DNA of 64,000 bases from the NCBI GenBank assembly GCA_018902385.1, contig JABSSW010000033.1, positions 372,001 to 436,000 on the forward strand, in the 5' to 3' direction. The translations under genes were made by a program, and so were the position numbers. This document shows positions 5,700-60,815 of this stretch, in pieces; position 1 is the first letter of the stretch; each line of letters begins with the position of its first letter. A model generated the notes under the pieces. That model ran no database searches, was not told where the DNA came from, and worked only from the letters and a program-made list of their open reading frames with translations. This DNA comes from Physcia stellaris (Eukaryota > Ascomycota > Lecanoromycetes > Caliciales > Physciaceae).

Positions 5700-6070
5700 T
5701 ATCCGCCTGATTGCTAGAACAACAAGATACTATCGTACAATGGATGTGTGGGTGGTGTTTCTATCAAGCAGTATGCCCACAGAGACCAGAACGCGCCAAA
5801 GTGGAACTGCCACTATGCCGGAACAAACTCCCAACCTCAAGACTCAAGCCGCAGAAGGAAGAGTCCATAAACAGCGCCATCGTCCCCTAAAAGGCGTAGA
5901 GCAGCCCAGGGGGACGCCGAAATAGGAAGATAGTATGTGGTCTCAAAAAAAGAAGAGACGAAAGCTGCAGAGGCCAGAACTCGGGCGAACGGTCGCCTAT
6001 ATTGGCGTGCCAAGCCTCGGCGACTGCAATTCCGTCTCATCTGCTTCAGCACCCTAGTCCAGCCAGCCGA
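5700..6070 (+). repeat. Dispersed repeat family 1, copy A
   Basis: By eye this stretch aligns with 19265-19835 (reverse orientation) and 20497-20767 (same orientation). Shared words include ATTGCTAGAACA near the left end, CAAGCCGCAGAAGGAA in the middle, GAAGATAGTATGTGGTCTC, and GCTTCAGCACC near the right end. The copies differ at many positions and carry stop codons in all frames, so this is a decayed non-coding or defective mobile element. I could not define target-site duplications or terminal repeats with confidence. Confidence 0.75.
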
Positions 6071-6939
6071 TGTATACAGAACATGTTGGGCGACAAAGTC
6101 GTGCAATACGGACTGATCAGGTAGGTTGGCAGAGCAGAACTTCTCTAGACATTGGAGCTTGGCTAATCACTCTTCTACTTAGGAGACATCATCTTGGACG
6201 TTTGACGTCTGTGTGGACCTTTGCTTTACCTTTTTCGTAGTCAATTCAATGCTTTATGCTGCAGGACGGCTAGAACTAGAGAAAGAACATATTTCATTGG
6301 CCCACTGTGGAAGATCTTCGTGCTACTCAAAAGCTTACGTCTGGGTAAGCTGGTGTTGCGATGAAACGTCTCGCACACCATCCACTGTGTCGCTCGGAAG
6401 TCGATGAAGGCAAGTCATATTTCCATTTGCATATCCGGGAACGTTTCAAAGGTTTGCCCAGACGAAAGTCCCCTTGATGTACATGAACCCAGGATGTACA
6501 TGACCACTTCGTCTCCTTGGTAGCCAGATGACTTCAAGCCACTCTCAATAGGGTGCGAAAAACCTGTAATGAGGATCACTCAGGGCGACCGTGAATTGGC
6601 TTGACAGTTACAGGGCTCGGTGGTTTGCTTTACAGAGCAAGCCATTTCATTCATCCGAACAGTATCAACACCCGGCGGAAAATCTGAGGCTTGTTTAGGC
6701 TTAGTGCCACGCTAAGGACGCGGTGGCCACAGATATCTACCTGATCGCGATTGATGGAAGCTCTCTTTCTTTCTTTCCCAAGTCCCCAACATATTGACGC
6801 TCTCCAATTTAATATTGTTGTTGACCATCTACGAACATCTGGGCAAGGCCCACAGGTTTGGCTTTCGCTTCCCCGTGGAAGCAGCTGCGGCGATCTGATC
6901 GCCGTTTGCAAACATAAAGTGTGCTGGGTTCGTATCCAG

Positions 6940-11798: not shown

Positions 11799-14492
11799 TC
11801 ACGTCGCTTCAGCACCCAGTCGTGGTCCCACGGACTCGCTAAATGCACCGGCAGTGGCCGGCTGCCAGGATTGAATGTCATCCATCACATAAACACAGCC
11901 CAGTTTCTCAAACCAATATGCCTCGAACAAGTCCATGGTTACACGAATCATCATACGCTCTCCGTCGGGGCGTGCAATATTAAGAGAAAATCCTTCAGCG
12001 TCACTCCAAGCACACTCCGACGGAGCACAAGTCACCAGCAAGGAATCTTCTTCTGATTTGAGAAAGAATATGCATGACCCACCCAGAGAGGTTCTACACA
12101 TCCAAAGCGTGGCTGACTGACCGGATTCCAATATACAATCGGATGTTCGTTTGAAATCGTCGGCTACGGTGAGGCTATCCGCCAGTATCAACCTTTGTGT
12201 CCGACAGGCTTCTAAATGCTTTTGGCACAGCTGTAAGTTCTGCTGTATTCCTATTTGCTTTAGACTGAGGTCATGCGAGGTGTCTTGTATTGCCTTAACC
12301 TTTCGATCAAGGGACTCAATCTTACTGTTGACAGACAACGTAAGTTTAGAGCTCTCGTCTCTCAAGTGAGCCAATTTCACATCTTGTGATCGAGTCAGCT
12401 CCTGCTTCTCCTTCTTTAGAATGTCGATGTCCGCATCTAGCCTATTGATTCTTTTGTCGTAGCTCTTAATCATTTTCTCGGAGTCTTTGACCCTGGTCTC
12501 GTAGTCTCTGACCCTGATCTCGTAGTCTCTGACCCTTTTCTTGTAGTCTTTGACCTGGTTAGCAGCCGCGCCTCGCTCAGTAGTAAGCTTGTCTATCTTT
12601 GCACTATTACCACTAATTGTCTCCTCCAGCTGGCCTATTGTCGTTTCCAACCTTTGGACGTCTTGCAAGGATTTCTCCGATTGACGTCGCGTGTTTTTCA
12701 AATCACGCTCATAACGGTTGATCCTACCGAAGTAATCTTTACTGGAAGCTAGATTAGCAACCTGTAGCACCACATAGTCATCTTGTTGTTTGATCAAACG
12801 ATCAGAAGTTTTTTCCAGCTCTGCTTGAGTGTCGGATAAATCTCTATTGGCTTTTTCCAAAGTTGACGTCAGCTCCGTAATTTGGCGCCGCTGGTGTCTG
12901 ACGTTGCTTTCCATAGTTGACCACTTGTCTTTAGTCTCTTTGAGATCATCAGATTTTGTCTTTAGCTTTCCTTGAGTGTTCGACAGGTCGATTTTGGATT
13001 GTTCCCAAGTCCGGGTCAGATCGGTAAGTATGGTCTGCTGTTGCTTTGCAGTCCCTTCCAGAGTCGACACCTTCTCTTTGGCCTCCTTGAGATCCTCAGA
13101 TTTGCGTTTCAATTGGGTGGCTTTCTGTCTCGAATCCGCTTCAGTCTTGTCGAGTCGACTACGAAGAGCGTGAATGCTATCCAAGCGCTGCTCAGAAACG
13201 ATCTCTAGAGACGAGATAGTTTCATTGGCTTCTTCCAGTCGCTCTTTTTCCGCAGCGACGACGGCCTCCGCCTCACGCAGCTTCTGTCGAGCATTCTCAA
13301 GCTCTTTCGCTTGTTCTTTGGCCTTGGCGATAAGTCCTGACATCTCTGTGCCGCGTTCCGTCATTTGTTTGAAAGTCCGGTCTGCTTTGACCTTGTACTC
13401 TTGACAATCAGTCTTATACTTTATCTTCGACTGAAGTGCCACCTCTAATTTATCTTTGATTTTCTTTAGCTCGAGCGTTGACTGGCCAACGGTAGTGCTC
13501 AAGTTCTGCTTGTCTTGCTCCAACTCCGCAATCTTACTTTCCGAGGCAAGCAACGAACGCTCATTCTGTGCTTTGCCCTCTTTCGAGGTCTTTACTTGTG
13601 CTTGAAGTGAAGCAACCCAATGTTTGGTTTCATCGAGTTCTTGATTAAGGGAAGCGAGCTGGGTATCTTTGCATCTGGATTCCTGCATGCATGTCTTCTT
13701 ACCGGCCTCTTGCTTCTTGGATTCCTCCCGCCAATAATCTTCGCTCTTTTCCAGCTTCTTCTTCACTTTTTCGAGTCGATGCGTAGAAGACGTATATTCA
13801 TTAATCGTAACGTTCTGCTCGGCCAGCTCTTCTCCCTTCTTCTTGTCACTTGACCGCGAGGTGGTAAGTTGCCGTTGTAGGTCTTCGATTGTTGCTGTGT
13901 CTTGAGCCGCTTTCTCTTCCCAACTTTTAGATTGTCTCTTATATGCCTCTTTTTCCAGCTCGAGTTCCGTCCGCTCCCGTTGGAGTTGAGCCGCACATTG
14001 CGCATTGTATTCGTCTAGTTGACCGTTTTGCACTGCCGTGGCCTTCTCCAGCATCAAATGGAACTGATCCAGTAGGACTGTATTCCTAGCTTTCCTAGCT
14101 TTGACCGAGTCGTCGACTGACTGGTCGAGGCTCGTTAGACCGCCGATCTCAACGTCTAGTGCCCTACTCAGATGGATTACGTTGTCTTCCACCCGTTTTA
14201 ATCTGGCGATAGGGATATCTGGAGGGGTGACCCCTTCAACTCGAGTGGCCAGCGGACACCCACGCGTTTGTCTGATATGGCTGATGCAATTTTCGCGGTG
14301 TTCTCTGGTATGATATATCATGTCAAAGTCGCCCATCTTTTTGGGAGGTGGAGTCCGTGCTCTCTTTGTAGGTGAGAGCTGTTTTCTTGCTCTCTTGACC
14401 TTGAGCAGCTGTTGTCCACCATTCCATGGTACTGAATCTGAATCTGACTTCTCTGACTCTCCAATATCGGTTGGAAGTCGTCTCGAATCCAT
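11799..14492 (-). CDS. Long coiled-coil protein, 897 residues
   Basis: The frame is open above the chosen start to a GTG at 14522, but the first ATG is at 14492 (MDSRRLPTDIGESE). Residues ~25-55 are basic and look like a bipartite nuclear localisation signal (KVKRARKQLSPTKRARTPPP). Next comes a His/Cys cluster (HTREHRENCISHIRQTRGCP) that could bind zinc, though this is unproven. From ~130 to ~770 it is an almost continuous coiled coil. That coil contains a duplicated 49-residue unit beginning KSEDLKEAK and KSDDLKETK, and a run of near-identical heptads (RVRDYEI, RVRDYET, RVKDSEK). The last ~130 residues form a separate cysteine-containing globular tail ending in LGAEAT. The overall design resembles filament or spindle/nuclear scaffold proteins, but no specific family is assignable. 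It is divergent from the next gene. Confidence 0.8.
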   Translation of the reverse strand: MDSRRLPTDIGESEKSDSDSVPWNGGQQLLKVKRARKQLSPTKRARTPPPKKMGDFDMIYHTREHRENCISHIRQTRGCPLATRVEGVTPPDIPIARLKRVEDNVIHLSRALDVEIGGLTSLDQSVDDSVKARKARNTVLLDQFHLMLEKATAVQNGQLDEYNAQCAAQLQRERTELELEKEAYKRQSKSWEEKAAQDTATIEDLQRQLTTSRSSDKKKGEELAEQNVTINEYTSSTHRLEKVKKKLEKSEDYWREESKKQEAGKKTCMQESRCKDTQLASLNQELDETKHWVASLQAQVKTSKEGKAQNERSLLASESKIAELEQDKQNLSTTVGQSTLELKKIKDKLEVALQSKIKYKTDCQEYKVKADRTFKQMTERGTEMSGLIAKAKEQAKELENARQKLREAEAVVAAEKERLEEANETISSLEIVSEQRLDSIHALRSRLDKTEADSRQKATQLKRKSEDLKEAKEKVSTLEGTAKQQQTILTDLTRTWEQSKIDLSNTQGKLKTKSDDLKETKDKWSTMESNVRHQRRQITELTSTLEKANRDLSDTQAELEKTSDRLIKQQDDYVVLQVANLASSKDYFGRINRYERDLKNTRRQSEKSLQDVQRLETTIGQLEETISGNSAKIDKLTTERGAAANQVKDYKKRVRDYEIRVRDYETRVKDSEKMIKSYDKRINRLDADIDILKKEKQELTRSQDVKLAHLRDESSKLTLSVNSKIESLDRKVKAIQDTSHDLSLKQIGIQQNLQLCQKHLEACRTQRLILADSLTVADDFKRTSDCILESGQSATLWMCRTSLGGSCIFFLKSEEDSLLVTCAPSECAWSDAEGFSLNIARPDGERMMIRVTMDLFEAYWFEKLGCVYVMDDIQSWQPATAGAFSESVGPRLGAEAT
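12480..12563 (-). repeat. 21-bp tandem repeat coding for identical heptads
   Basis: The word GTAGTCTCTGACCC recurs at 12501 and 12522, with variants at 12480 and 12543, all exactly 21 bases apart. On the minus strand each unit encodes one coiled-coil heptad (RVRDYEx). This is direct evidence that the coil has grown by tandem duplication of seven-codon units. Confidence 0.85.
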
Positions 14493-15043
14493 TACTAAAT
14501 AAGATATGATAGCAGGCCACACGAGCGGCTGCTAATAATAAACACTCGTAGAGTGTAAGAGTGCGAGCACTCTGTGCAAGCAACTTGTGCAAGCACTCTG
14601 TTGGAAGTCAGTCAATGTTTCAATCAAGACACACTTACTGAGTGTAGAAAGGGAAGCTGCAAGACATCCATTGCGTTGGCTATGTTTGATCTATGTCAAT
14701 TGATGGCGGACAGAGGACCAACGTGTTCCCTCTGATGAAAGAACGGGAACCCGGCCCTGGGAGGGGACTTTCCGATTTAGGTGGGACTTCCCGTTTCGGA
14801 CGAACCCTTCCATACCTAGGGCACCGATTTTTGTTCCATCAACTTTCTTCCAATCCATCGGTAAGTAAATATGCGACAACTCCATCAGCTTTCTATTCAT
14901 ACCTCCATTGGATTTTCCAGAACTGCGCAATCGTTGGTTTGAACCGATTGTGACGGGGGATAATTTCCCTCAAGGTCTGCGTGCCTAAGGTCTTCGTACC
15001 TACTAAAAGTGGCTGCTCGTGCGGTCTACTATTATATCTTATT
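14493..15043. promoter_or_regulatory. Shared divergent promoter region of two coiled-coil genes
   Basis: About 550 bases separate the two divergent start codons. Both ATGs are preceded by the motif TATNATATCTTAT: CTATTATATCTTATT before 15044, and CTATCATATCTTATTTAGTA before 14492 read on the minus strand. A short direct repeat based on GTGCAAGCA occurs near 14572-14596. A 60-base leader intron for the rightward gene is likely at 14861-14920. Confidence 0.45.
14861..14920 (+). other. Probable 5' leader intron of the 1118-residue coiled-coil gene
   Basis: The segment begins GTAAGTAAAT and ends GATTTTCCAG after a pyrimidine-rich stretch, a strong fungal intron pattern. It lies upstream of the start at 15044 in the same direction. 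No upstream coding exon is evident. Confidence 0.5.
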
Positions 15044-18000
15044 ATGTCTCTCCAGGGATCTGATGCCTGGGCTTGGCTCCCTAAAGCTCAGCAAGCCAGA
15101 GCGGATATCGACTCGACCGCTGATTTTCTTGCTGTTGCACATAAAACGGTAAGACCGAAACAGCTCAACGAATACGCCAGTCAGGTCGACACCCTTATTA
15201 AAGGGCTAGAATCAATGAAAGACAGTCTTGAGACCAAAGTTGCTGAGCTAGAATCTCAGCAACATGCCTGGGATGAAGGTAAAGTCTCTCGGAATCAAGA
15301 GCTGGAAAGAAATCAGGACAGCCTCGACCAATACAACCGCCAGCTCAGTGGGCTTAGGGAAGATGTTGAGCGGGTGGAAGCCCAGAAATCTAATGCAGGC
15401 GAACTAGCCGAGGAAAAGGCCCAAGAATGTACCAGATTGGATGGCGATCTCAAGAGTCGCCGGACTCAAGTCGATGACCTGGACAAGCGAATCACAGAAG
15501 CCGAAAGCCAGTTGCAGACCAGGGCTGATGAGCTCGCCAAACACAAACGGGAACATGAGGGTGCAGTCGCACAACGGCAGGCGGAACTTTTGGACCTCGA
15601 TGGTAAACTCCGAGACGGAAAAAACAAAATGGCTGACCTCGATGGGCAGATACGGGTCCTCTCGGAACGTCAATCAACCACCGATAGAGCGTTGTCTACG
15701 GCCGAATCGAAGTTGCACAATATCAATTCGGACATACAGAGCAAGAGTCGGGAACTGGGAGAGGCAGCACTGCAGCATACCCAAGCGATGGACAAACACA
15801 AGACGGATTACAGCCAACTTCAGCAGGAGATACGTGATAGCCAGGAGACTGCAAGAAAAGAGGCCGAATCGCGAAGAAAGGAGGTGGACAAGCAGAAAAA
15901 GCAGACCGAAGATTGGGAAGCTCAAAGCAAGAAGTACCGAGACGAAATCGCTCAGCTGGGAGCAGAGCGAAAACGTACCCATACGGAACTCCAGACCAAC
16001 AAGGCTCTCCTTGTCCAGGTCAGTCAAAACTCGACCCGAGACACAGAAGAGCAAGAGACCTGCCAGACCCAGGCTCGGACGATCGAGAAACTCACGGATC
16101 AGATAAAGGAATTCAGCGAGGATCAGCGCCGCCAGACAGATATTGCCAAAACATACCGTGAAGGTCTCGGTGGTATCAAGCAGCAACTTGAGAAGGGTCT
16201 GCTGGAAGAATACATCCATCAGCCTGAAGATACGCCAGATAAGACCATCACGGAGATATCCCAGAACGTGAAAATGGTGCTAGATCTCACCACTGGTCTG
16301 GAAAAGGAGCTATATTCGAAGACAAAGCAGGCAGAATCGGATCAATCGGAGCTCGCCAAATTGCGAAGCGATAAAGGAGATCTTGCCAAACAGCTCAAAC
16401 ACGCCAAGCGTAAACTCAAGACGACTACCGAGAAACATGACTCAACGCTCGAAGACGTCAAGGGGCAACTTACAACTGCCACTGAGACCAGTGAGAAACA
16501 TGTCTCGACGATTGGTATCAGTAACCGGAGGCTTGCCGACATACAAGCCCTCTTGAGCCAACAAATCGATGAAACAAATGGCTTATCCGAGGAAGTAGCT
16601 CGACTCAAACGTTGCTACGACTTCTCAAGAGATAATCATGTCAAAGAAGCCAACGACCTTCGACGGCAAATCAAGAAGCTATCAGCAGACCTGGTGGAGG
16701 CTATGGATGATCGTAATTCGATGGTCTTGTACATGGCAGAAACGGGTCACCATCACAGAGCATTCGTTGAAAAGAAAGCACGTATGTTCTCAAAGCTTGC
16801 AGTCGCTCACAACACGATATCGTCTTTTCTCACGCGTCAGGGCAACCAGGATAGGTGGTTGGGAGAGCGAGACACTCAAATTGAAGATCTACAGGCACTA
16901 ATCAGATCGCACAAAGAGCAGGAAAGATCGGATTTGGCCGAGATAGGGGCACTGCGGGCGAAAGCGCAGCAGGCTTCTCTCAAAATCGACACACTACAGG
17001 ATGGAAACGCGAAGCAGATGGAGCGGATCAAAGACCTCGAGGACAAACAGAATGAACTGCAAAAGTCGAACGGTGCATTACTCGAAGCAAAGTCGGAGCT
17101 TGAGGGTGAATCGAACGCCTTGAAAGAACAGCTCCAGACCGCTACCGCCACCAAGGACAAGTACATTTCCGACCAAACGAAGCAGAAGGCCAGGATTGAA
17201 CAGCTCCAGGGCGAGAACGCAGATTTACAAAAGTCTGCTGGTGAATTGCAAGCAGCAAATTCGGAGCTTACTTCTAGCCATCATACCATCGAAGGCGGAA
17301 ACAAGGTCTTGAAGGAACAGCTTCAAGCCGCAACAGCCGCCAAGGATGAGCTCATTGCCGACAAAGCAGCGTTGGAAGAGAGCACCAGCAGTCTAATTGG
17401 CAAGCTAGAGGGTAAACAGAATGCGCTCGTAATACAGGAGAGACTCAATGCTGACCAAGAGACAGATCTCGAGAGAAAGAGATCCGAATGCGGTAAGCTG
17501 ACTGAGGACTACAATAGAGTCACACAAGAGAAGGAGAGGTTGCTGCGAGAACTGGAGGAAGAGAAGCAAAAGACCTCGAATTCTCCGGATATCGCAGGAC
17601 TCCTCCGCGCGATGACCTTAGAGCGGGACAATTTGCAGAAGGAAAAGCTAGAGCTGTCGACGGAGAACAATAATTTAACGCAGAAGATTAAGGCGTTGCA
17701 TATCGTTCCATCTTCAAGCAGTGCTACCGGGGAATCAGGTGGCTCGATTAGCCCAAGGGACACAGGTCGCAATTCCGATATTGCAGACGATCGGGACAAC
17801 CCAGATGCAGACGCCCAGTCCAGAGGGGAACTAAGGCGGCCGAGGCAGCCTTTTGGAACATCACGGTCGGTCTTCTGGTATAACGCTTGTTCGAGTTTGG
17901 AACGCTGACTCGATTCTGCAGGTTATCAACTCTGGATCCCGACTCGCGGATCACTCGTAAACGCAAGACAGCTATCGAAGACGTCGGGACCACATCCGGG

Positions 18001-19264: not shown

Positions 19265-19835
19265 TCCTTTTCGTGATCGGCTAGCTGGACCACGGTGCTG
19301 AAGCAAATGGGACGAAATTGCAGTGGCTGGGGCTTGGCACGCCTATATGGGCGACCTTCCCCCCCGAGCCTCTGGCTTCGGCATCTTTCGTCTCTTCTTT
19401 TCGAGACCACATACTATCTCCCTCTTTCGACGTCTCCCTGGACTGCTTTCTATGTCTCATCAGCGATGCTGGCGCCGTCTATGGACATTTCCTTCTGCGG
19501 CTTGGGTCTTGGGTTTTTGGGAGTTCGGTTTCGGCATAGTTACAGCTCCAGCATGGCCCGTTTTGTAGGTTCCTCCTGGGCATACTGCTTGCTAGAAACC
19601 ATCGCCCACACACCCATTCTATCCCATGCACTGGTGGAGGGTGGCACATTTTTTCAAGGGCCCAGAGGCCGCTTAGAAGCTGTGCCCGGGAATTCCATTC
19701 AACACGACTCGAAGCGCGTCTTTGGGGTCACCTCGGCTTTCGCTCAGGTCTCGGCTCACCTGGATCCTTACCTGTAAAAAGGGTGCCATACCTGTGCAAG
19801 GGATAGTATCTTGTTCTAATAATCAGGCGTTAGAC
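19265..19835 (-). repeat. Dispersed repeat family 1, copy B (reverse, with an internal insertion)
   Basis: Read on the minus strand this matches copy A at 5700-6070 from end to end: ATTATTAGAACAAGATACTA near 19800-19830, then the AAGCAGTATGCCCA, CCAAGCCGCAGAAGGAA and AGATAGTATGTGGTCTC words, and the right end GCTTCAGCACC. Roughly 160 bases between 19640 and 19798 have no counterpart in copy A. Confidence 0.75.
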
Positions 19836-20496
19836 CCCTTTTACGATCACATTCCTACTTCCAATTATTGAATGTGTTACTCTGGTAGCTATTAGCAGTG
19901 TACATGGAAACAACAGGACTATTGAGGATATATGTTACTCAGTCAACTAGCTAGGGCAGGATGCAGATGAACCGAGATTGCAAAAATGACTGAGGTTGAC
20001 CTCGATTACAAAGGCGACCAACTTCCTGTCTAGTCTCTGCGTTCTTATGTCTTTTTCTTTTTAATCACCATTCGATGATCGTTAGTCGTCCGCATAGATA
20101 AAGGGGGTCTCAACGCTACAATAGCGCTAGTGCAGAATGATGAGAAGCTCATCAATAACAATAGAGAGACTCTCGGCTCGACGCTTCTCTTCCTTATCTT
20201 TGTCTCTTCTTTGCGTCGGTCACCCATTGCTGTTCTGAACCTCTTTTGACAAGTTCACACCTGTTCATTCTTCTTCACTCCATAGGCCAGATGCAGTGGA
20301 AGTAGCTGACTATGAAAGCTACTAAGCGATATGCGCTCGGTGGATGCGTACAAGCCACCTTCACCGCCCAGACCCATAGCATGCACATGAAGTGACGGAA
20401 AAATGCAGCATCAGCTTTCAAACTGTGACAGCTCGAGGTTTTTAACGGTATGTAAACCTCAACAGCTATCGCTTGCCGGAACTATCAGATCAGTGC

Positions 20497-20767
20497 TAAA
20501 GCCTCGTTCGCCTCATTGCTAGAACAGGATACTGTGTACATGAGTGTTTGGGCGATAGTCTCCTAGGAAGAGCAGTAGGTAGCCCACGGGTACCAAAACG
20601 GGGTACCAAAACGGCCAAACTGGAGCTGCCACTGTGTCGGGAAACAAACTCCCAAACCCCAAGATCCAAGCCGCCGAAGGAAGAGTCCATATACGCCGCC
20701 AGCGTCGTCCAAGGCACAGAAACAGCCCAGGAAAGACACGACAAGAGGGGAAGATAGTATGAGATTG
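20497..20767 (+). repeat. Dispersed repeat family 1, copy C (truncated against the satellite)
   Basis: Homology with copy A runs from CATTGCTAGAACAGGATACT through AAGCCGCCGAAGGAAGAGTC to GAAGATAGTATG. It then stops, and the satellite begins within about 15 bases. In copies A and B the element continues for ~130 bases more. Confidence 0.75.
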
Positions 20768-20780
20768 AATGTTCGTAGCC

Positions 20781-23700
20781 AGCATGCACAGCGAGGCTCC
20801 AGAACATACGAAGCTTCAAAACGGAGCGTCAAAGCGGAACTTCAGACTATGCGAGGCTTCAGACCGGAAACGGAGCTTCAGAGCGGAGCTCCGCGTCTCA
20901 GAACATGCAGAGCGGAACTTCTTGCTCTGGAGCGTTTCGAGCATGCGGAGCTTCGCACCCGAAAGCAGGCAAAGCATCCAGAGCGGAGCTCCGTGCTCTG
21001 GAGCATTGAGAGCATGCGGAGCTCCGCGTCCCAGAACATCCAGAGCGGAGCTCCGTGCTCTGGAGCATTGAGAGCATGCGGAGCTCCGCGCCCGAAAGCA
21101 GGCAGAGCATCCAGAGCGGAACTCCGTGCTCTGGAGCATTAAGAGCATGCGGAGCTCCGCGTCCCAGAACATGCAGAGCGGAGCTCCGTACTCCGGAGCA
21201 TTCAGAGCATGCGGAGCTCCGCGCCCTGGAGCATTTAGAGGATGCGGAGCTCCGCGCCCTGGAGCATTTAGAGGATGCGGAGCTCCGCGCCCGAAAGCAG
21301 ACAGAGCATCCAGAGTGACACTCCGCACTCCGGAGCATTCCGAATATGCGAAGCTCCGCGTCCCAGAACATGCAGAGCGGAGCTCCGTACTCCGGAGCAT
21401 TCAGAGCATGCGAAGCTCCGCGCCCTGGAGCATATAGAGAATGCGGAGCTCCGCGCCCGAGAGCAGGAAAAGCATCCAGAGCGGAACTCCGCGCTCCGGA
21501 ACACATCCTCAACGTTGCAGAGCGGAACTTCACGTTTCAAAACATCCAGAGCATGCAGAGCGGAGCTCCGTGCTTTGAGGCATTTAGAGCATGCGGAGCT
21601 CCGCGCGCGAGAGCAGGCAGAGCATCCAGAGCAGAGCTCCGCGCTCCGGAACACACTCTAGGCGTTGCAGAGCGAAGCTTCGCGCTTCAAAAGCACTCAA
21701 AGCGAAGCTCCGTGCTTCAGGAGCACGCTCTAGACGTTGCAAAGCGGAGCTCCGAACTTCAGAGCACACTCTATACGTTGTAAAGCGGAGCTTCGCACTT
21801 CAAAGCAGGCAGAGCGGAATTTCGAGCTTCAGAGCATACTTTAGACGTTGCAGAGCGGAGCTCCGAACTTCAGAGCACACTCTATACGTTGTAGAGCGGA
21901 GCTCCGCGCTTCAAAGCACGCAGAGCGAAGCTCCGAGCTTCAGAACACGTTTCAAAGTTTGCAGAGCGAAGCTCCGAAACAGTCAGAGCAGTCAGAGCAG
22001 ATAGAGCGAAACTTCACCCTTCAGAATTTGCAAAGCGACACTTCGAGCTCCAAAACGAAATTTCACGCTTCAGAGCATAAGCACGCAGACAGAGCTTGCA
22101 AAACGAAGCTCCGAACATCAGAGCAAGCAGAGTTTCGAGCTTCGCACTCTAAAGCATGCAAAGTTTCGAACTCCGCGCTCAAGAGCGCTGCAAAGCAGAA
22201 CTTCGAACTCTAGAGCACGTTTCAGAACACGCAGAGTGAAGCTCCGAGCTTCAGAGCAGACAGAGCAGGCGGAGCGAAAGTCCGAGCGCCAGAACAAGCG
22301 AAACTCGAAGCTTCGAGCTTCAAAGTGTGCAGAGCGGAATCCGAGCTCCAAAGCGTGCAGAGCGGAACCCGAACTACAGGCAGGCAGAGCGAAACTTCGA
22401 GCTTCAGAGCAGGCAGAGCAGGCAGAGAACGCAGAGCGAAGCTTCAAAACAGGCAGAGCGAAGATCCAAGCGTCAGAACAGTCAGAGCAACCAAAGCGAA
22501 GCTTCGAAACAAGCAGAGCAGCCGAAACGAAACTCTGAAGCAGCCGAAGCTCCGAAGCAGTCAGAACACGCAGAGCGAAACTCCAGAGCAGGCGAAGCTG
22601 GCGAAGCGAAGTTTCGAACGTCAAAGCAGGCAGAGCAAACAAAGCGAAGCTCCGAAGCAAGCAGAGCAGTCAGAGCGGAGTTTCAGAGCAGACGGAGCTT
22701 CGGAGCAGTCAAAGCACGCAAAGCGTAACTCCGAGCGCCAAAGCAGGCAGAGCAGACAAAACGAAGTTTCGAAGCAAGCAGAACAGTCAGAGCGGAGTTT
22801 CGAAACAGTCGAAGCTTCGGAGCAGTCAGAGCACGCAGAGCGAATCTCCAGAGCAGGCGGAGCAGACGGAGCAGACAGAGCGAAGTTTCGAACGTCAAAA
22901 CAGGCAGAGCAATCAGAGCGAAGCTTGAAACTTTCGCGCAGACAGAGCGAAACTTCGCGTCTCAAAGCGAGCATGCAGAGCAGACTCAACGAAACCTCGA
23001 GTCTCATAGCACTCAGAGCGAAAATTCGAGCAGGCAGAGCAGACAGAGCGGAACTCTAGAGCAGACAGAGCGAAGCTTTAGAGCAGACAGAGCGAAACTC
23101 CATTGTATTCTGCGCTCCGAACTCTAGAGCGGACAGAGCGGAGTTCCGGAGCATGCAGCGTTTCGAACTTCATTGCATTCAGCGCTCCGAACTCTAGAGC
23201 AGACAGAACGAAGCTTCATTGCATCCAGCGCTCCGAGCTCTAGAGCGAACAGAGCGGAGCTTCGGAGCATGCAGCGCTTCGAGCTTCATTGCGGGCAAAA
23301 AGAAGCTTCATTGCGGAGTCAAAGCGAAGTTTCAGAGCATGTAGAGCTCCGAAACAAGCAAAGTTTCGTGCTTCAAAACATGTAGAGCTTCGAAGCTTGC
23401 AGCGCTCTGAGCTTCAAAACTTCAGAGCGGAACTTCACTGCGGGCAGAGCAGAGTTCCGGAGCACGCAGCGCTTCGAGTTCCAGAGCGGACAGAGCGAAA
23501 CTCCATTGGTGACAGAGCGGAGCTCCGGAAAATGCAGCGCTCCGAGCTCCATTGCGAACAAAGCGGAGCTTCGAAACATGCAGCGCTTCGAGCCTCAAAG
23601 CAGACAGAGCAGGCAAAGCGCCGCTTCGGGCTCCAGAGATGCTTCAGAGCTTGCAGAGCGGAGCTTCGAGCTTTCGAGCAAACAGAGCAGACAGAGCGGA

Positions 23701-26090
23701 GCTCCGGGTTCCAGAGCACGCTCCAGAGCTTGCAGAGCGAAGCTCCGAGCTTTCGAGCAAACAAAGCAGACAGAGCGAAACTCCGGGTTTCAGAGCACGC
23801 TTCAGAGCTTGCAGAGCGAAGCTCGAAGCTCCGGAGCAAACAGAGCAGCCAGAACAGAGCTTCCAGCTTTAAAACAGACAGAACGGAGCTTCGAGTTCCA
23901 GGATAGCCAAAGCGAAGCTCCGAGCTGAAGAGCAGACAGAGCGGAGCTCCGAGCTCTAGGATAGCCAGAGCGAAGCTCCGAGCTTCAGGGCAGACAGAGC
24001 GAAGCTTCGAGCTTCAGGGCAGACAAAACGAAACCCCGAACTCCAGAATAGTCAGAGCGAAGCTCCAGAACAGACAGAGCGAAGCTCCGAACTCCAGGGT
24101 AACCAGAGCGAAGCTCCGAGCTCCAGAACAAACAAAACGAAGTCCCGGACTCCAGAGTAACCAAAACGAAGCTCCAAGCTCCAGAGCAGGCAGAGCGGAG
24201 CTCCGGACGCCAGAGCAGACAGAACGAAGCTCCGAACGTCAGAGCAGGCAGAGCGGAGCTCCGAACGTCAAAGCAGACAGAGCGGAACTCCGGACGTCAG
24301 AACAGGCAGAGCGGAACTCCGGACGTCAAAGCAGGCAGAGCGAAGCTCCGAGCGCTAAATCAGGCTCCTGAGCAGGCAGAATAGACAGAGCAGCCAGAGC
24401 AAAGCTTCGAGCTTCAGAACAGACGGAGCAAACAGAGCGAAGCTCCGAGATCCAGAGCACGCTCCAGAGCTTGCAGAGCGAAGCTCGAATCTCCGAAGCA
24501 AGCAGAGCAGCCAGAGCAGAGCTCCCAGTTTCAGAACAAACAGAACGGAGCTCCGGACTCCAGGGTAGCCAGAGCGAAGCTCCAAGCTCCAGGGCAGGCA
24601 GAATGAAATTTCAGAGCAACCAGAGCAGACGAAGCAGGCGAAGCAGACAGAGCGGAGCTCCGGGCTCCAGAGCAGGCAGAATGAAATTTCAGAGCAACCA
24701 GAGTAGACAGAGCAGCCAGAGCAGCCAGAGCGAAGCTCCGAAGCACGCAGAGCAGCCAAAGCGAAACTCCACGCGTCAGAGCAGTCAGAGCAAGCAGAGA
24801 GAAGCTCCGGAGCACGCAGAGCAACCAGAGTGAAGCTTCACGCGTCAGAGCAGCCAAAACGGAGCTCCGCGCGTCAGAGCAACCAGAGCAAGCAGAGCGA
24901 AGCTCCGAAGCACGCAAAGCAGCCAGAGTGGAGCTCCACGCGTCAGAGCAGCCAGAGCAAGGAGAGCGAAGCTCCGGAGCACGCAGAGCAACCAGAGCGA
25001 AACTCCACGTCTCAGAGCAGCCAGAGCGGAGCTCCACGTCTCAGAGCAGCCAGAGCGGAGCTCCAAGTCTCAGAGCAGCCAGAACAGAAATTCAAGCCTC
25101 AGAGCAGCCAGAGCAGTCAGAGCAAAACTTCGAGTCTCAGAGCAAGCAGAGCGAAACTCCGAATCTCAAAGCAAGTAGAGCAGGCAGAGCAGGCAGAGCA
25201 GGCAGAGCAGGCAGAGCAGACAGAGCAGGCAGAACAGGCAGAGCAGGCAGAACAGACAGAGCGAAGCTTTGTATTTCAGAGCATGCGAGGTTTGAAGTTT
25301 CAGAGTAAGCGAAGCTTCTCGCTCTAAGATATTCAAAACGAAACTCCGTGTTTTAGAGCATATAGAACGAAACTTCGTGCTCTAGAGCACGTAGAGCATC
25401 TAGAGTAAGCGAAGCTCCGCTCTCCAAAGCATACAGAGCGAAACTCCGTGTTTTAGAGCATATAGAACGGTACTTCGTGCTCTAGAGCACGTAGAGCATC
25501 TAGAGTAAGCGGAGCTCCGCTCTCCAAAGCATACAGAGCGAAGCTCCGTGCTTCAAGAGCATTCAAAGCATTCGATGCAAGCGGAGCTCCGCTTTTGAGA
25601 GCATACAAAGCGAAGCTCCGTGCTTCAGAGCATCCAGAGCGAAGCGCTCCGAAACATCCAGAGCGGAGCTCCGAGTATGTACGGCGGAGCTTCAGACCAT
25701 GCACAGCGGAGCGCTCCGGAGCATCGAAAGCGGAGCTCCAAGTATGCATAGTGAAACTCTAGAGCATGCATAGCGGAGCGCTCCGAAGCATCGAAAGCGG
25801 AGCTCCAAGTATGTATAGTGAAACTCTAGAGCATGTAGAGCATGCGGAGCTCCAAGCTTCTGAGCATCTAGAGCCGAGCTCCGAGTATGCAGAGCCGAGC
25901 TTGAAAGCTTGCAGAACGAAGCTTCACGTCTCAGAGCTTGCAAAGCGGAGCTTCACGCTCCGAAGCACTCTCCAGAGCATGCAGAGCGGAGCTCCGAGCT
26001 TTAGAGCATTTAAAACGTAGCTTTGTGCTCCGGAGCATTCAGAGAGGAGCTCCGCGCTCGAGAGCTTCCACGGCGGAGCTCCAAAGCTCT
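20781..26090. repeat. 5.3 kb satellite of palindromic-core units
   Basis: Thousands of bases are built from variants of one ~15-33 base unit, such as CAGAGCGGAGCTCCG and CAGAGCGAAGCTTCGA. They alternate the palindromes GGAGCTCC and GAAGCTTC with linkers like AGAGCA and CAGGCAGAGCA. Locally the units are organised into distinct longer periods: exactly 33 bases at 21211-21276; 62 or 71 bases at 21011-21206; near-identical blocks at ~21734 and ~21848; 9-base GCAGGCAGA units at ~25171-25262; 100 bases at 25339-25538; and 66 bases at 25699-25830. Long ORFs occur on both strands and in several frames at once, so coding is unlikely. No gene, centromere signature or telomere is attached to it. Confidence 0.9.
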
Positions 26091-27357
26091 ACCAGTGCAA
26101 AGATTTCCACCACAATCTCTCGGTACGGTACCATCCAAAGTACAGATCATGAGCGGACAGCATGTGCCAATTGTAATCGAGAAAATGTCACCGTCCTTCG
26201 TTTGGAAGAATAGAAAGCGAAATGAGCGATCTATGGTTGGAAAGAGATCGCCAAAATCTCACTCGTCCCGTTAATAAAAATAAGTATGCACGGGTATCTG
26301 GGCGGTAATCCCTAGCACGCAGTATGCTCACAGGGGAACAGGAGTGGGTGGGTGAGGCCAAGAAGACACGATGAATGAGGAAGGCAAGAGTTAGGACATC
26401 AGCTTCCTAATTGACAAGGAGGCCTGCTACTCGGCCCCTTTATTTATTCTATTATCCCTGTATTGCCACCTATGTCTAGTCTAAACGGTTCATCTTTTAT
26501 GCATTAATCGTCTCTTCTTTTTTGATATTACACACTATCTTTCCGTTCCTCTTCTTCTTGAGCTGTTTACATGTATCTCTTGCAACACTGACCTCATCTA
26601 CTAAATCTCCCCTCGACGGCTTGGGTCTTGAAGTTTAGAAATCTGTCGTGGCACAGTGGCAATCTTGACCCGTACCTCCTTCAGTATTTTGAACTCCTCA
26701 CGAGATTTTGCTTCATAACCCAAACGTATAGTCAGAGGAATTAGCCATGGTCCATCAGACATAAATAACTAAAGACAAAGAATAGTTGAAATCTAAGCCA
26801 GGTGCCTCATCTAGGATACTCTCCCTCGAACAATCATACGGAAAGGTCGAATGAATGGATTTGCCGTGCAAGAGAATGAAAATCCTGGAAGCATTTAGAG
26901 CGGATGGGTCAATTGTGTCCTTTGCATCCTTCGTGGACGGCATATCTGACATGATTGAGGTTCTCAGGCACTGGTAGAATTTGTCGTGTAGGTCGATTAT
27001 GTTGACCGGACCAGATGGATTTTCTGGACGATTGCTTGGACACCAACTGTGAGTCATCCTGCATCCCAGCTAGTGTAGCATTGGGCTCCAATTTGTGTCA
27101 ATCGAGCGAGATGATAAAGATGGATTGTTGTGTGGAGAGAAGGTGTGTACTTAAAGGAATTTCGCTGCTGGTGGAATAAACAACAAACACGACAACTGAG
27201 ATCGGCCATGCACAGAGTCGGACATTAATATATAATATATATAAAGTGGTACCAGCGGCTTGCCATATCTGGTTTTGGAATCTGTGTAGGAATGTGAAAA
27301 TTTAGATGAGAAAAAGTAGATGTAAGATGTCTTCAGGACAGTAATAACCTGCGGAAG
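26091..27357. other. Non-coding flank right of the satellite
   Basis: Unique sequence with only short ORFs, including a minus-strand ORF of 100 codons at 26755-27057 with no domain. A diverged relic resembling dispersed repeat family 1 is at ~26505-26660. An AT-rich run (ATTAATATATAATATATATA) lies near 27224-27243. Confidence 0.45.
26505..26660 (-). repeat. Possible diverged copy D of dispersed repeat family 1
   Basis: On the plus strand, CGTCTCTTCTTTT, ACACACTATCT and CGGCTTGGGTCTTG occur in the same order and similar spacing as in copy B at 19388-19510. The remaining bases are poorly matched, so this call rests on three short anchors. Confidence 0.4.
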
Positions 27358-58135: not shown

Positions 58136-60815
58136 ATGCCGCCAAAAGCAGCGGGTCCAATTGTAACACTGAACTACAGCGGTTACAGCGATGCGGACTC
58201 CAAGCACCGACCCAGCGGTGCACAATGGAAAGAGTGTGACGCAGACTGGGTGAAGAAGGTTTACCTGTCGAAAGTGGCTCAGAAGTGGATGGAAGATACT
58301 GGGCAGGCCGAAGCTGGTGGGTCGGCTCTGCCATACGACTGCTTCTTCGCCCATTTTCTGTTGCTGTTGTCTTTTGTTGCACGATCTTGTAGCTTTCACG
58401 TACATCTCCTGTCAGTGTAGGAAGTTTCAATGGGCTTCAACATGCTTGCTACCAATTCCTACGGTCATGCGGTTGGATATATTCTCTCATCCAGCTTCAT
58501 TGCCCATTCCCTCCTACGACCCCGAAGATAGGCATCACCCGGCTTCCTCGGAAATCTCAGGGCCCCTCTTCCAAGACTCTGGAATATCTCTTTACACAAG
58601 TCTATGGATTTTTTCGCCAAGCCCATTTATTTGAAGCAACTGCCTCTTTCTTCCACAACCACTCACTGCAAAGGTAAAGAACAGAACCTTGCAAGCTGAA
58701 ACCATTCTGTGTTAGGAAAGCAATATCAACTCGACAAACTTCCGCCAGGGTATGAAGTCTGGGAGAAGGCTCGAAATGACCAAGTGAGTATCATGCATGG
58801 TCTCGGAATTTGCAGTCTGACTGAATTATGCGTGCGTAGCGTAATGTAGACCGTTTCTGCTTTGGACACCCAAGCCATGGACAAGGCTTCAACTCACCCT
58901 ACGACTTCTACCCTCATTTCGAATATCTGATGCGGTACGAAGGAGAAGAAGATGTCTGTAAATGCCGCTTCTGCAGCAAAGCCGGTAGCTCTGCTCGGAA
59001 AACCACCTCCAGATCCTCCTCGAAACTTCCTGCTTCTAAACCCAAAGCATTGGGGATACGTGGTCGCCCGCCTCTGAAACGAGGCCCAGTCGATGACGAA
59101 GGCTCTCCTGACGTTATCATGCGATTCCTTTCCGTGCTGCAGCAGGAGGGTCACATCGATCGAAAAGTTGAAGAGAGATCGAACATGGTAAACAAGAATT
59201 GCCTCGTACGATATACTAGCTTACATGTCTCAGGACTGGCGCGTCGAGACCGTTGTCTATAAGGGTGCAAGACGGCTTATAACAACTCAAAATTCGTTTG
59301 TACCCCGAATAGGCGAGCTCGTACTATTTCATCGAGGTGAGAAGATCTCTCTGCACTCTCCCACCTCCAACCTTGGCACATCGAATCCGGAAAGGAGTCT
59401 CACCGGATATGCTGTACGGAATTGTGGCTAGCTGAAGGATACTAATGCACCTGCACTTTACAGGCGTTGATGGCGAAGTCCAAGCTGATCCAGGCTCTGG
59501 TGAGCTCAAGGTCTGGAATGCTGCCTCACAAAGCTTCACGGGTCACCCAGAATGGCTCGGAGGCATCGTCACACAAGTCCCTATTTCGGAAGAGCCCGTT
59601 CGACTCAAAGACACCACCCACGAAACACCTAAGAAACACAATGTCAATAGCTCAGGCTTTCGCGTCGAATGCTATCCGAGTCCGAACGCCAAAGACAAGA
59701 GCTTCTCTAAGCAGTACAGCTACGTGCCCCTACATCAAATTCGGCCAATGATTTTGTGTGCCTATACTCTCAAAGGCATTGCTACAGAAGATTGGCATCC
59801 AACCATTCAAAACGTCATGACTGCTATGAGCACCGTATCTTGCGTTTCCCGATACAAGATCAAAGGCTATTGGCCCAATTTTGGCATGTTCTGCGAAGCC
59901 ATCTACTTGGGCTCTGAAATTCTCTGGGCTGGCGAACCGTTACGTCTCATGCCTCGTGGCAAGGAGACAGCTGTCATCGACGTGATAGTTCCAGATTGTT
60001 TCGTCGTCCGTGTTTACGGCTTGCAGCCCGAAGAAGACGGAACCATCACAGGCAACCGGGCGAAGAAAATCCATCTATTGGTCATCGGAAGCGTCTATAC
60101 GACCGACAAGAACTCCTCCGAAAGCTGCCCGGTCCAAGAAGAAGACGACATCCCCAGAATCATGCACGCTTATGGACCGTGGTATCACAAGTCTACTTCG
60201 CAAGCCAAATACGAAACCGGCTTCACTCACATCCTGGGTCGTCTGTACGAACTCGAAGCAATGAAGCAGTGGTTCCCCAACATCACTGCTCCTGAAGCCC
60301 TCGATAAAGGCATGGCCAGCATGCGCAATTCGCGGGCCTACGCAACATCTCACCGAAAAGACCACTCCGGAGCGCAGGTAGGTTGGTTCTGGGGCGAAGA
60401 CCGCGCTTCCGCACTCGACCTCGCCACCTTCAACGGCATCGAGATCGGCGAATACGACAAAGAGCGCGAACCGAAGAAGTGGCGCGAAGTCCTCGCCGTG
60501 CTGGATGGACTGAAAGATCGTGTCGTTGAGCCAGTCGCTGAGCCATCCTCTCACGGCGATGAGGGATCCAGTGGGGGGGTTATAGCGGTGAATCGCCGCA
60601 AGAGCAGCCTTGCCGCTCCGCCGATTACACAGGAGGACAGCGATGTCGAGGGCGAAACCGCTGGGAGGACGGGTCACGAGATCATTGATGTAGACGAGTA
60701 CGACGACGTTATCGAGGGCTTGATCGCGGGTGAAGGCTTCTCCACCATCGCTGACCCGCATGAAGAAGGGAGCAGCAGTGCAGGCCCTGCTGCAAAGCGT
60801 GCTAGGATGGTCTGA
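58136..60815 (+). CDS. clr2: Clr2-like transcription-silencing factor, five exons, 683 residues
   Basis: Exons 58136-58316, 58716-58783, 58840-59187, 59234-59336 and 59464-60815 join in frame (EAG-KQYQLDKLPPGYEVW; NDQ-RNVDRFCFGHP; SNM-DWRVETVVY; HRG-VDGEVQADP). The N-terminal part has the Clr2 signature: LPPGYEVWEKAR, CFGHPSHGQGFNSPYDFYPH and a short Cys set (VCKCRFCSK). It is followed by the C-terminal Clr2 domain (FVPRIGELVLFHRG; SYVPLHQIRPM). In fission yeast Clr2 is a SHREC-complex subunit that promotes heterochromatic gene silencing through histone deacetylation. An equivalent nuclear role is expected. The tail is acidic and ends with AKRARMV, a possible nuclear signal. Intron 1 is 399 bases, exceptionally long here. 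A 155-base copy of exon 3 lies at 28.9-29.07 kb. Confidence 0.87.

Follow-up and report, generated by a model that had tools for sequence, protein, structure and literature searches.

The tandem array and its surroundings

The window analysed here, a 64,000-nucleotide stretch of the Physcia stellaris genome, contains a minisatellite array at 20781..26090 (+ strand), where an unbroken run of drifting tandem units extends over ~5.3 kb; both the coordinates and the continuity of the repeats agree with the original prediction, which had described a tandem array of drifting short units. The units are 29 bp long (consensus CAGAGCGGAGCTCCGAGCTCCAGAGCAGG), and among them are 9-bp insertions of the CAGAGCAGG type as well as local higher-order repeats. 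With at most 2 mismatches allowed, motif AGAGCGGAGCTCCG is present 95 times against 0.72 expected, and 95/95 occurrences are within the array. The array has a GC content of 0.557 and sits in a 16.6 kb interval with few long ORFs. Autocorrelation is strongest at a shift of 29 bp (40% identity), followed by 9, 38 and 58, and periods of 29, 38, 67, 79, 100, 133 and 199 bp, among others, are nested in it. Three zones stand out: a left zone (20883..21465, +) with 133- and 199-bp higher-order repeats, many intact GGAGCTCC palindromes and strong predicted hairpins; a central zone (22374..23435, +) in which the CpC arm sites of the palindromic cores are most often altered (20/26 and 10/14); and a right zone (25302..25835, +) with higher-order repeats of 100 bp (91% identical) and 67 bp (86%).

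Dispersed repeats lie on both sides. To the left, a MITE-like repeat copy (19277..19622, +), which has more copies in the genome, including another at 5736-6071 of the window, is followed by a second, inverted copy of the same repeat (20495..20765, –) that stops ~15 bp before the array. To the right are another short dispersed repeat (26340..26490, unstranded), with 71–72% identical copies on contigs C26, C21, C20, C1, C32 and C73, and a diverged fragment of the MITE-like repeat (26508..26661, +). The predicted lack of transposon domains holds for the three ORFs in the array, which have no Pfam match, while dispersed repeats directly adjoin it.

Searches with the whole array and with two parts of it had a single matching site in the 44 Mb genome, the block on contig C33, so the further genomic copies for which the original prediction proposed to look were not found by these own-genome DNA searches, in which very common words were skipped and the best candidates scored. 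Of the 75 matches to a 15-mer pattern with one mismatch, 67 were in the array and 8 outside it; the backward control had 15. The unit had no exact match in viral contigs or in prokaryote genome contigs, neither of which is a fungal collection. The array lies ~127 kb from the end of C33 (525,440 bp), and this position, together with the single locus, gives no support to a role in chromosome biology, be it pericentromeric or genome-wide; the structural or silencing function that had been proposed is unsupported.

Satellite DNA of centromeres or heterochromatin is typically spread over several chromosomal sites in numerous long and homogeneous arrays, whereas here we find one locus with copies ~65–91% identical; head-to-tail units of ~10–60 bp at one locus are instead the mark of a minisatellite, and the array has them. 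Fungal minisatellites and VNTRs have units of tens of bp, occupy one locus, grow by local duplication and are non-coding. Our array resembles them in all four respects and differs in being long (5.3 kb) and diverged, in the palindrome within its unit and in a C-to-T context signature. Growth by duplication is indicated because the periods are nested and duplicates are up to 91% identical. From this anatomy, a short GC-rich sequence flanked by MITE-like repeats would have been the seed, and replication slippage and unequal exchange would have expanded it to 5.3 kb; the resulting 29-bp units are interspersed with 9-bp insertions and show local duplications nested in one another. Taken by itself, the array is nothing unusual in kind, though long and diverged, and a cellular function is not needed to explain it.

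Palindromic cores and mutation contexts

Palindromes are as dense as predicted. Perfect palindromes of length 8 number 77, against a mean of 26.4 (maximum 40) in 200 dinucleotide shuffles, and those of lengths 10 and 12 number 50 and 22, against 7.6 and 2.1 in dinucleotide shuffles. The centre of the unit had been described as either GGAGCTCC or GAAGCTTC, in alternation, and neither part of that description survived. With the core defined as G[AG]A[AG][CT]T[CT]C (n = 120 in the array), 52/120 cores are perfect palindromes (37 GGAGCTCC, 12 GAAGCTTC and 3 GAAATTTC) and 68/120 are not (28 GAAGCTCC, 10 GGAGCTTC, the rest others). From one end of the array to the other, GGAGCTCC and GAAGCTTC give way to each other 13 times, fewer than the 18.1 ± 2.5 of shuffled orders, and the two named cores hence tend to cluster. 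The core arms vary independently (Fisher p 0.25 for the outer and 0.27 for the inner positions), and we reject the idea that the palindromes are kept by compensatory change. Each of the two core types looks like a mutation product of the other: if the CpC at the end of palindrome GGAGCTCC were hit on either strand or on both, GGAGCTTC, GAAGCTCC and GAAGCTTC would result, and these predicted products are the commonest core variants found.

Transition rates in the array differ between contexts. Of the 20 C/G columns, the four CpC columns have the highest rates (40.8, 34.7, 26.0 and 25.9%), which has a chance of 1/4845 if columns are exchangeable; the array units share descent, and the cells are not independent. 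Class means are 31.8 for CpC, 17.3 for CpT, 13.7 for CpG and 11.2 for CpA, with reverse changes at 7.8%, and duplicate pairs within the array give the same order (31, 17, 13 and 7% changed, respectively). The observed/expected ratio (o/e) of CpC in the array is 0.47 and that of CpT is 1.75, not depleted. The fifth-ranked column is a CpG (24.2%) and another CpG column reaches 19.2%, for which misalignment of the 9-bp units may be responsible. Transversions amount to 20 and 27% in CpC columns 20 and 29. CpC and CpT change are not significantly correlated over 12 array zones (rho 0.43, p 0.16), although the ten core-only zones look parallel. A gradient of hits along the array is apparent in core sites and not significant over all columns, and we do not rely on it. 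Classical CpA-directed RIP of the array is rejected: CpA is the least changed context, TpA/ApT exceeds 0.89 in 4/11 500-bp segments, and the substrate criterion is reached in 0/11 (whole array: TpA/ApT 0.72, substrate index 1.84).

Repeat-directed C-to-T mutation of retroelements

Our data demonstrate a repeat-directed C-to-T process in the retroelements of this genome, which strikes CpC first and CpT second and leaves CpA and CpG largely intact. Among 30 fetched RVT_1 loci, 24 carry C-to-T changes on both strands; the affected loci have a GC content of 0.235–0.367 and a CpC o/e of 0–0.43 (≤0.07 in 21/24). The window outside the array has a CpC o/e of 0.95 (0.73 in its lowest 1-kb windows), so that, as expected of RIP, the both-strand change is confined to repeats within the loci and the window compared. 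When the unmutated locus L040 was aligned to the 24 mutated loci and the 11 alignments of at least 1000 columns were kept, 94–100% of CpC and 76–98% of CpT sites were changed, against 0–7% of CpG and 3–15% of CpA. Transversions were ≤0.7% in 10/11 of these alignments and the 5' neighbour of the mutated C had little effect. CC and GG counts are both 0 in three reverse transcriptase copies examined and 2 and 5 in a further locus, L035. The CpA preference expected of RIP is absent (3–15% at CpA versus 94–100% at CpC), and the usual RIP indices flag 0/25 mutated loci. Two unmutated reverse transcriptase copies, L041 and L042, are 95% identical to each other, which means that long repeats can escape the process. 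The genome has 4 C5-methylase (PF00145) matches at 3 loci, confirmed in L036, L037 and L038, and 8 Piwi-domain matches. RIP calls for a C5-methylase of the RID/Masc1 type; judging by motifs, the three loci are tentative candidates for RID or DIM-2.

A simpler and likely cause of the drift in the array is C-to-T change, whose peak at CpC coincides with the preferred target in the hypermutated retroelements. Judging from the matching context, array units would be partly altered by the retroelement-type process, which would strike C before a pyrimidine, CpC first and then CpT. Short and diverged internal homologies are the probable reason why the array escaped saturation. We favor, with fair though far from full confidence, the reading of the block as a single-locus, non-coding minisatellite lightly hit by a CpY-directed RIP-like process.

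Competing readings and relation to known RIP systems

The most serious competitor, which we consider possible although clearly the less probable, is ordinary drift, in which normal transition-rich mutation is spread by duplication and no repeat-directed process acts. The transition/transversion ratio of 2.9 among array duplicates is not extreme, CpT is not depleted, GC is high and independent columns are few. The MITE copies have a comparable mild context order (CpC 24, CpT 13, CpG 9 and CpA 11% changed; transition/transversion 1.8), so that a weak background affecting every repeat may account for the bias, and a small control, a flank sequence present in two copies, has no clean CpY pattern (CpC 12/37, CpT 8/30, CpG 7/25, CpA 5/57). 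Against drift stand the top four ranks of the CpC columns among 20, the CpC o/e of 0.47 in the array versus 0.95 in the rest of the window, and an array context order that matches the strong process of the long repeats. We think it improbable that the block is instead a structural or silencing element (a pericentromeric satellite, a boundary or a source of hairpin RNA) with its palindromes under selection. The palindromes do exceed chance by far, predicted RNA folding is strong towards the array ends (z about –4 to –8 in 9/10 strand-windows at 20981-21980 and in 4/4 at 25381-25780), and the Piwi-domain and C5-methylase matches make silencing possible; yet there is one locus only, the core arms do not covary, more than half of the cores (68/120) are not palindromic, and the folding signal is ~0 around 22181-23180, with scattered z of –2.8 to –4.3 elsewhere mid-array.

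Two further readings have very little probability. The array could be the interior of a transposable element, for example of foldback type, whose ends would be the flanking inverted repeats, given that MITE-like copies on either side are in opposite orientation nearest the array and that a 39-nt inverted pair (77%; 19577-19615 / 26292-26330) spans it; this we regard as very doubtful, as the same element should recur at other sites with terminal inverted repeats and a target-site duplication, whereas the flanking repeat has many copies and no second one of the array was found in the genome, and the left arm of the 39-nt pair falls inside one MITE copy. Least credible of all is a gene, spliced or not, that encodes a repetitive product. 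The three array ORFs are 205–244 aa long, but the longest open frame is equalled by 44/200 shuffles on the + and 20/200 on the – strand, the period is 29 bp, and indels between copies (size 1, 10 times; 4, 2 times; 5, once; 9, 3 times) break the frame; with the missing Pfam matches, a coding array is rejected and the prediction of no gene stands. Telomere, rDNA or tRNA identity is likewise rejected, in line with what had been predicted for telomere and rDNA: the window has no tRNA and no Rfam match at gathering score, and the exact telomere repeat searched for is only on C1, C46, C69, C72 and C77. The sole 5.8S match reported in the genome, among the best 39 of 2644 candidates, is a mutated pseudogene.

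RIP takes place in the sexual cycle, before meiosis. The process we describe resembles that of Neurospora crassa in the both-strand C-to-T change of long repeats, many copies of which are saturated, in the deciding role of the 3' neighbour of C and in the C5-methylase (PF00145) loci of the genome. It differs in its order, CpC > CpT >> CpA and CpG, and in escaping the usual indices; in the available text of PMC5496416, the N. crassa order is CpA > CpT > CpG > CpC, and Trichoderma reesei also has CpC last. According to the accessible parts of the respective reports, RIP is CpT-biased, with an additional CpA signature, in Magnaporthe, Botrytis and Sclerotinia (PMC4352252) and CpT is dominant in RIP-capable control genomes (PMC7882544). 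CpT is a main target here as in the former three, in contrast to which CpC comes first and CpA is largely spared; the term "CpC" has 0 occurrences in the available text of PMC4352252. CpC is the densest changed context in the basidiomycete Rhizoctonia solani AG8 as well, with one SNP per 214 bp at CpC, 370 at CpG, 422 at CpA and 491 at CpT, but in the portion of that report at hand (PMC4014442) the hypermutation is termed CpG-biased and concerns whole-genome SNPs whose density is lower in repeats (one per 301 bp for CpC), whereas here the change is in repeats, is near complete and spares CpG. A CpC-first RIP was not found in the accessible text of the literature searched, most subscription papers being outside its scope, and "CPC" in the text seen of PMC9073689, PMC4234444 and PMC10648671 is a strain or program name. 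In this partly covered literature, RIP mostly prefers CpA.

The CpY mutation, and not the array itself, is the interesting part of this locus. What likely produced the array variants is a C-to-T process directed at repeats, and its context is the opposite of that of RIP in the literature examined, as far as the accessible text goes. We lean slightly towards a unifying model in which the genome runs a RIP-type defence of reversed specificity and the minisatellite is its sub-threshold, low-dose record, the cores being its hit and unhit states. The case is a graded one, repeats of ~350 bp and a drifting tandem array being barely touched and most long retroelement loci examined being saturated. 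If true, RIP scans with CpA-based indices would miss a CpY process, which raises two testable questions, one about the determinants of sequence preference in RIP enzymes and the other about the number of fungal genomes that count as "RIP-negative" solely through indices that seek CpA.

C-to-T hypermutation at CpY in repeats of Physcia stellaris

A C-to-T process directed at CpY, that is, at C before a pyrimidine (CpC, then CpT), is present in this genome. A 5.8S search of the assembly, in which 39 of 2644 candidates were scored, reported a single match. It lies in L035 (C41:45899-46052 and flanking sequence), an rDNA pseudogene unit that is AT-rich (GC 31%) and carries 5.8S and parts of the LSU and SSU. 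CpC is nearly lost from this unit, with 7 remaining versus about 302 expected from the window. Classical RIP (repeat-induced point mutation) was ruled out for L035, since CpC is depleted whereas CpA and CpG are retained, and the retroelements of the same genome were therefore examined.

An RVT_1 search of the genome scored 150 matches out of 527 candidates; 10 of these are stop-free, and the stops counted were 250 TGA, 33 TAA and 3 TAG. TGA would be the expected product if CpC were lost from the strand opposite a Trp codon. Among the 30 best-scoring loci, which were fetched, 6 are normal in GC and CpC and 24 have a GC of 0.235-0.367 and a CpC observed/expected ratio of 0 to 0.43 (at most 0.07 in 21 of these). 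Direct counts of the 24 mutated loci against an unmutated copy (L040) yielded 11 alignments spanning 1000 columns or more, in which 94-100% of CpC, 76-98% of CpT, 0-7% of CpG and 3-15% of CpA were changed, transversions being at most 0.7% in 10 alignments and 4.1% in the remaining one. The 5' base was nearly without effect (for example, ACC 0.99, CCC 0.96, GCC 0.97, TCC 0.98). Less stringent alignments, 63 in all and obtained with the six normal loci as queries, gave 3825 C-to-T versus 37 reverse changes at CpC and 6493 versus 337 at CpT, a weak direction at CpA (816 versus 515) and none at CpG (578 versus 626). Both strands are mutated: neither CC nor GG remains in three RT copies examined, and L035, a unit apparently mutated by the same process as the retroelements, retains 2 and 5. 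The usual RIP indices flagged 0 of 25 hypermutated loci. L041 and L042, 95% identical over about 3.4 kb, bear no sign of hypermutation, and recent spread is one possible explanation of their escape.

The C5-cytosine methylase family PF00145 has four matches in this genome at three loci (L036, L037 and L038-L039), L037 carrying PF25423 (DUF7893) as well; judging by motifs, L038 and L036 may be RID-like and L037 DIM-2-like. Piwi matches number eight.

For repeat mutation that is CpC-first and spares CpA, we found no precedent in the literature searched, to the extent that its text was available. The RIP order in N. crassa is given as CpA > CpT > CpG > CpC, with CpC also last in T. reesei (PMC5496416); a multi-genome TE survey describes signatures at CpA, CpT and CpG, with 0 occurrences of 'CpC' (PMC4352252); and fungi are stated to share a CpA preference (PMC12543289), CpT is dominant in RIP-capable control genomes (PMC7882544), Stagonospora repeats are CpA dominant with CpC among the depleted dinucleotides (PMC2621366), and CpC-to-TpT double mutations are mentioned in Monilinia (PMC8959702). 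The nearest CpC precedent found is a table for Rhizoctonia solani AG8, where CpC is the densest CpN SNP class although the heading describes it as CpG-biased (PMC4014442); those are genome-wide SNPs rather than saturated repeats.

Structure and setting of the array

The array (20781-26090) is an unbroken run of repeat units. Its autocorrelation is highest at 29 bp, followed by 9, 38 and 58, and 5009 of its 5310 bases could be placed by wraparound alignment against the 29-bp unit CAGAGCGGAGCTCCGAGCTCCAGAGCAGG. Higher-order repeats are local, mostly 62 to 199 bp, and change from zone to zone, and internal duplicates are 73%-91% identical (60 longest listed of 95); we therefore read the array as the picture of local duplication, again and again, followed by decay. 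The block is a long single-locus minisatellite, an ordinary kind of object. Searches of the 43,974,083-bp assembly with the whole array and two parts of it, which omit very common words and score the best candidates alone, returned no match beyond this block. A 15-mer pattern, searched with one mismatch allowed, matched 75 times: 67 times within the array and 8 times outside it (backward control, 15).

Contig C33, of which the window spans 372001-436000, is 525,440 bp long, so the array is not at a contig end. A MITE-like repeat occupies 19277-19622; it has an inverted copy near the array (20495-20765), a diverged fragment (26508-26661) and one more copy in the window at 5736-6071. Another dispersed repeat is at 26340-26490. 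A left-flank search of the genome gave 94 matches, from 40 of 54 candidates scored. Several MITE-like copies sit near the starts of contigs C1, C17, C9 and C24, and the repeat may have a subtelomeric bias.

The original prediction that the block holds no gene is borne out by indels, shuffled frames and Pfam: copies are separated by indels of 1, 4, 5 and 9 bases, the longest open frames (281 codons on the + strand, 212 on the - strand) were matched or exceeded in 44 and 20 of 200 shuffles, and three array ORFs gave no Pfam domain. Both strands contain fewer stops than their shuffles do (79 versus 109, 134 versus 185). Aside from the array's own ORFs, none of at least 200 aa occurs between 17908 and 34538. 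Just left of this interval, long ORFs on opposite strands (11799-14522 and 14981-17908) look coiled-coil-like by eye; the former has weak Crescentin and CENP-F model matches under Pfam cut-offs, the latter not even a weak Pfam match. The window ORF at 59445-60815 carries a Clr2 transcription-silencing domain.

Palindromic cores and a probable CpY signature

The palindromic cores described in the original prediction do exist, in numbers far exceeding chance, yet no alternation is seen: 52 of 120 cores are palindromic and 68 are not, and the half-changed core GAAGCTCC (n=28) outnumbers the palindrome GAAGCTTC (n=12). Arm positions do not covary across the 120 cores (Fisher p 0.25 and 0.27), and the excess would reflect one palindromic unit copied many times. 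Predicted folding (40 shuffles per window) has a mean z of -1.9 and -2.8 for the two strands (26 array windows per strand), compared with 0.3 and 0.1 in 39 flank windows; it is strong toward both array ends, falls to near 0 around 22181-23180 and reaches -2.8 to -4.3 at scattered points in the rest of the middle.

The unit has 20 C/G columns. Ranked by transition rate, its four CpC columns take the first four places (40.8, 34.7, 26.0 and 25.9%), and a CpG column (24.2%) comes next. Class means are 31.8 for CpC, 17.3 for CpT, 13.7 for CpG and 11.2 for CpA, with reverse changes at 7.8%, and 24 duplicate pairs give 31, 17, 13 and 7% in the same order. The two palindromes named in the prediction therefore fit a single core that was either left unhit or hit twice, half-hit cores being the intermediates. 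Several observations speak against this: MITEs show the context order in a mild form, CpT is not depleted in the array, covariation of change among its zones is not significant, and the sole two-copy control, a small sample, is not CpY-like. CpC columns 20 and 29 are also rich in transversions (20 and 27%). We take the CpY process itself as shown and consider it likely that it acted on the array.

The MITE copy at 19277-19622 (346 bp) has a normal CpC content (observed/expected 1.11), unlike the 21 of 30 RT loci in which CpC is nearly absent, and homologies within the array are short and diverged. A threshold of length and identity, as in known RIP, would explain why the array is unsaturated; how efficient RIP is varies with the length and identity of the repeats (PMC12543289). 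The array's odd palindromes are what brought the unusual, repeat-directed mutation process of this genome to light.
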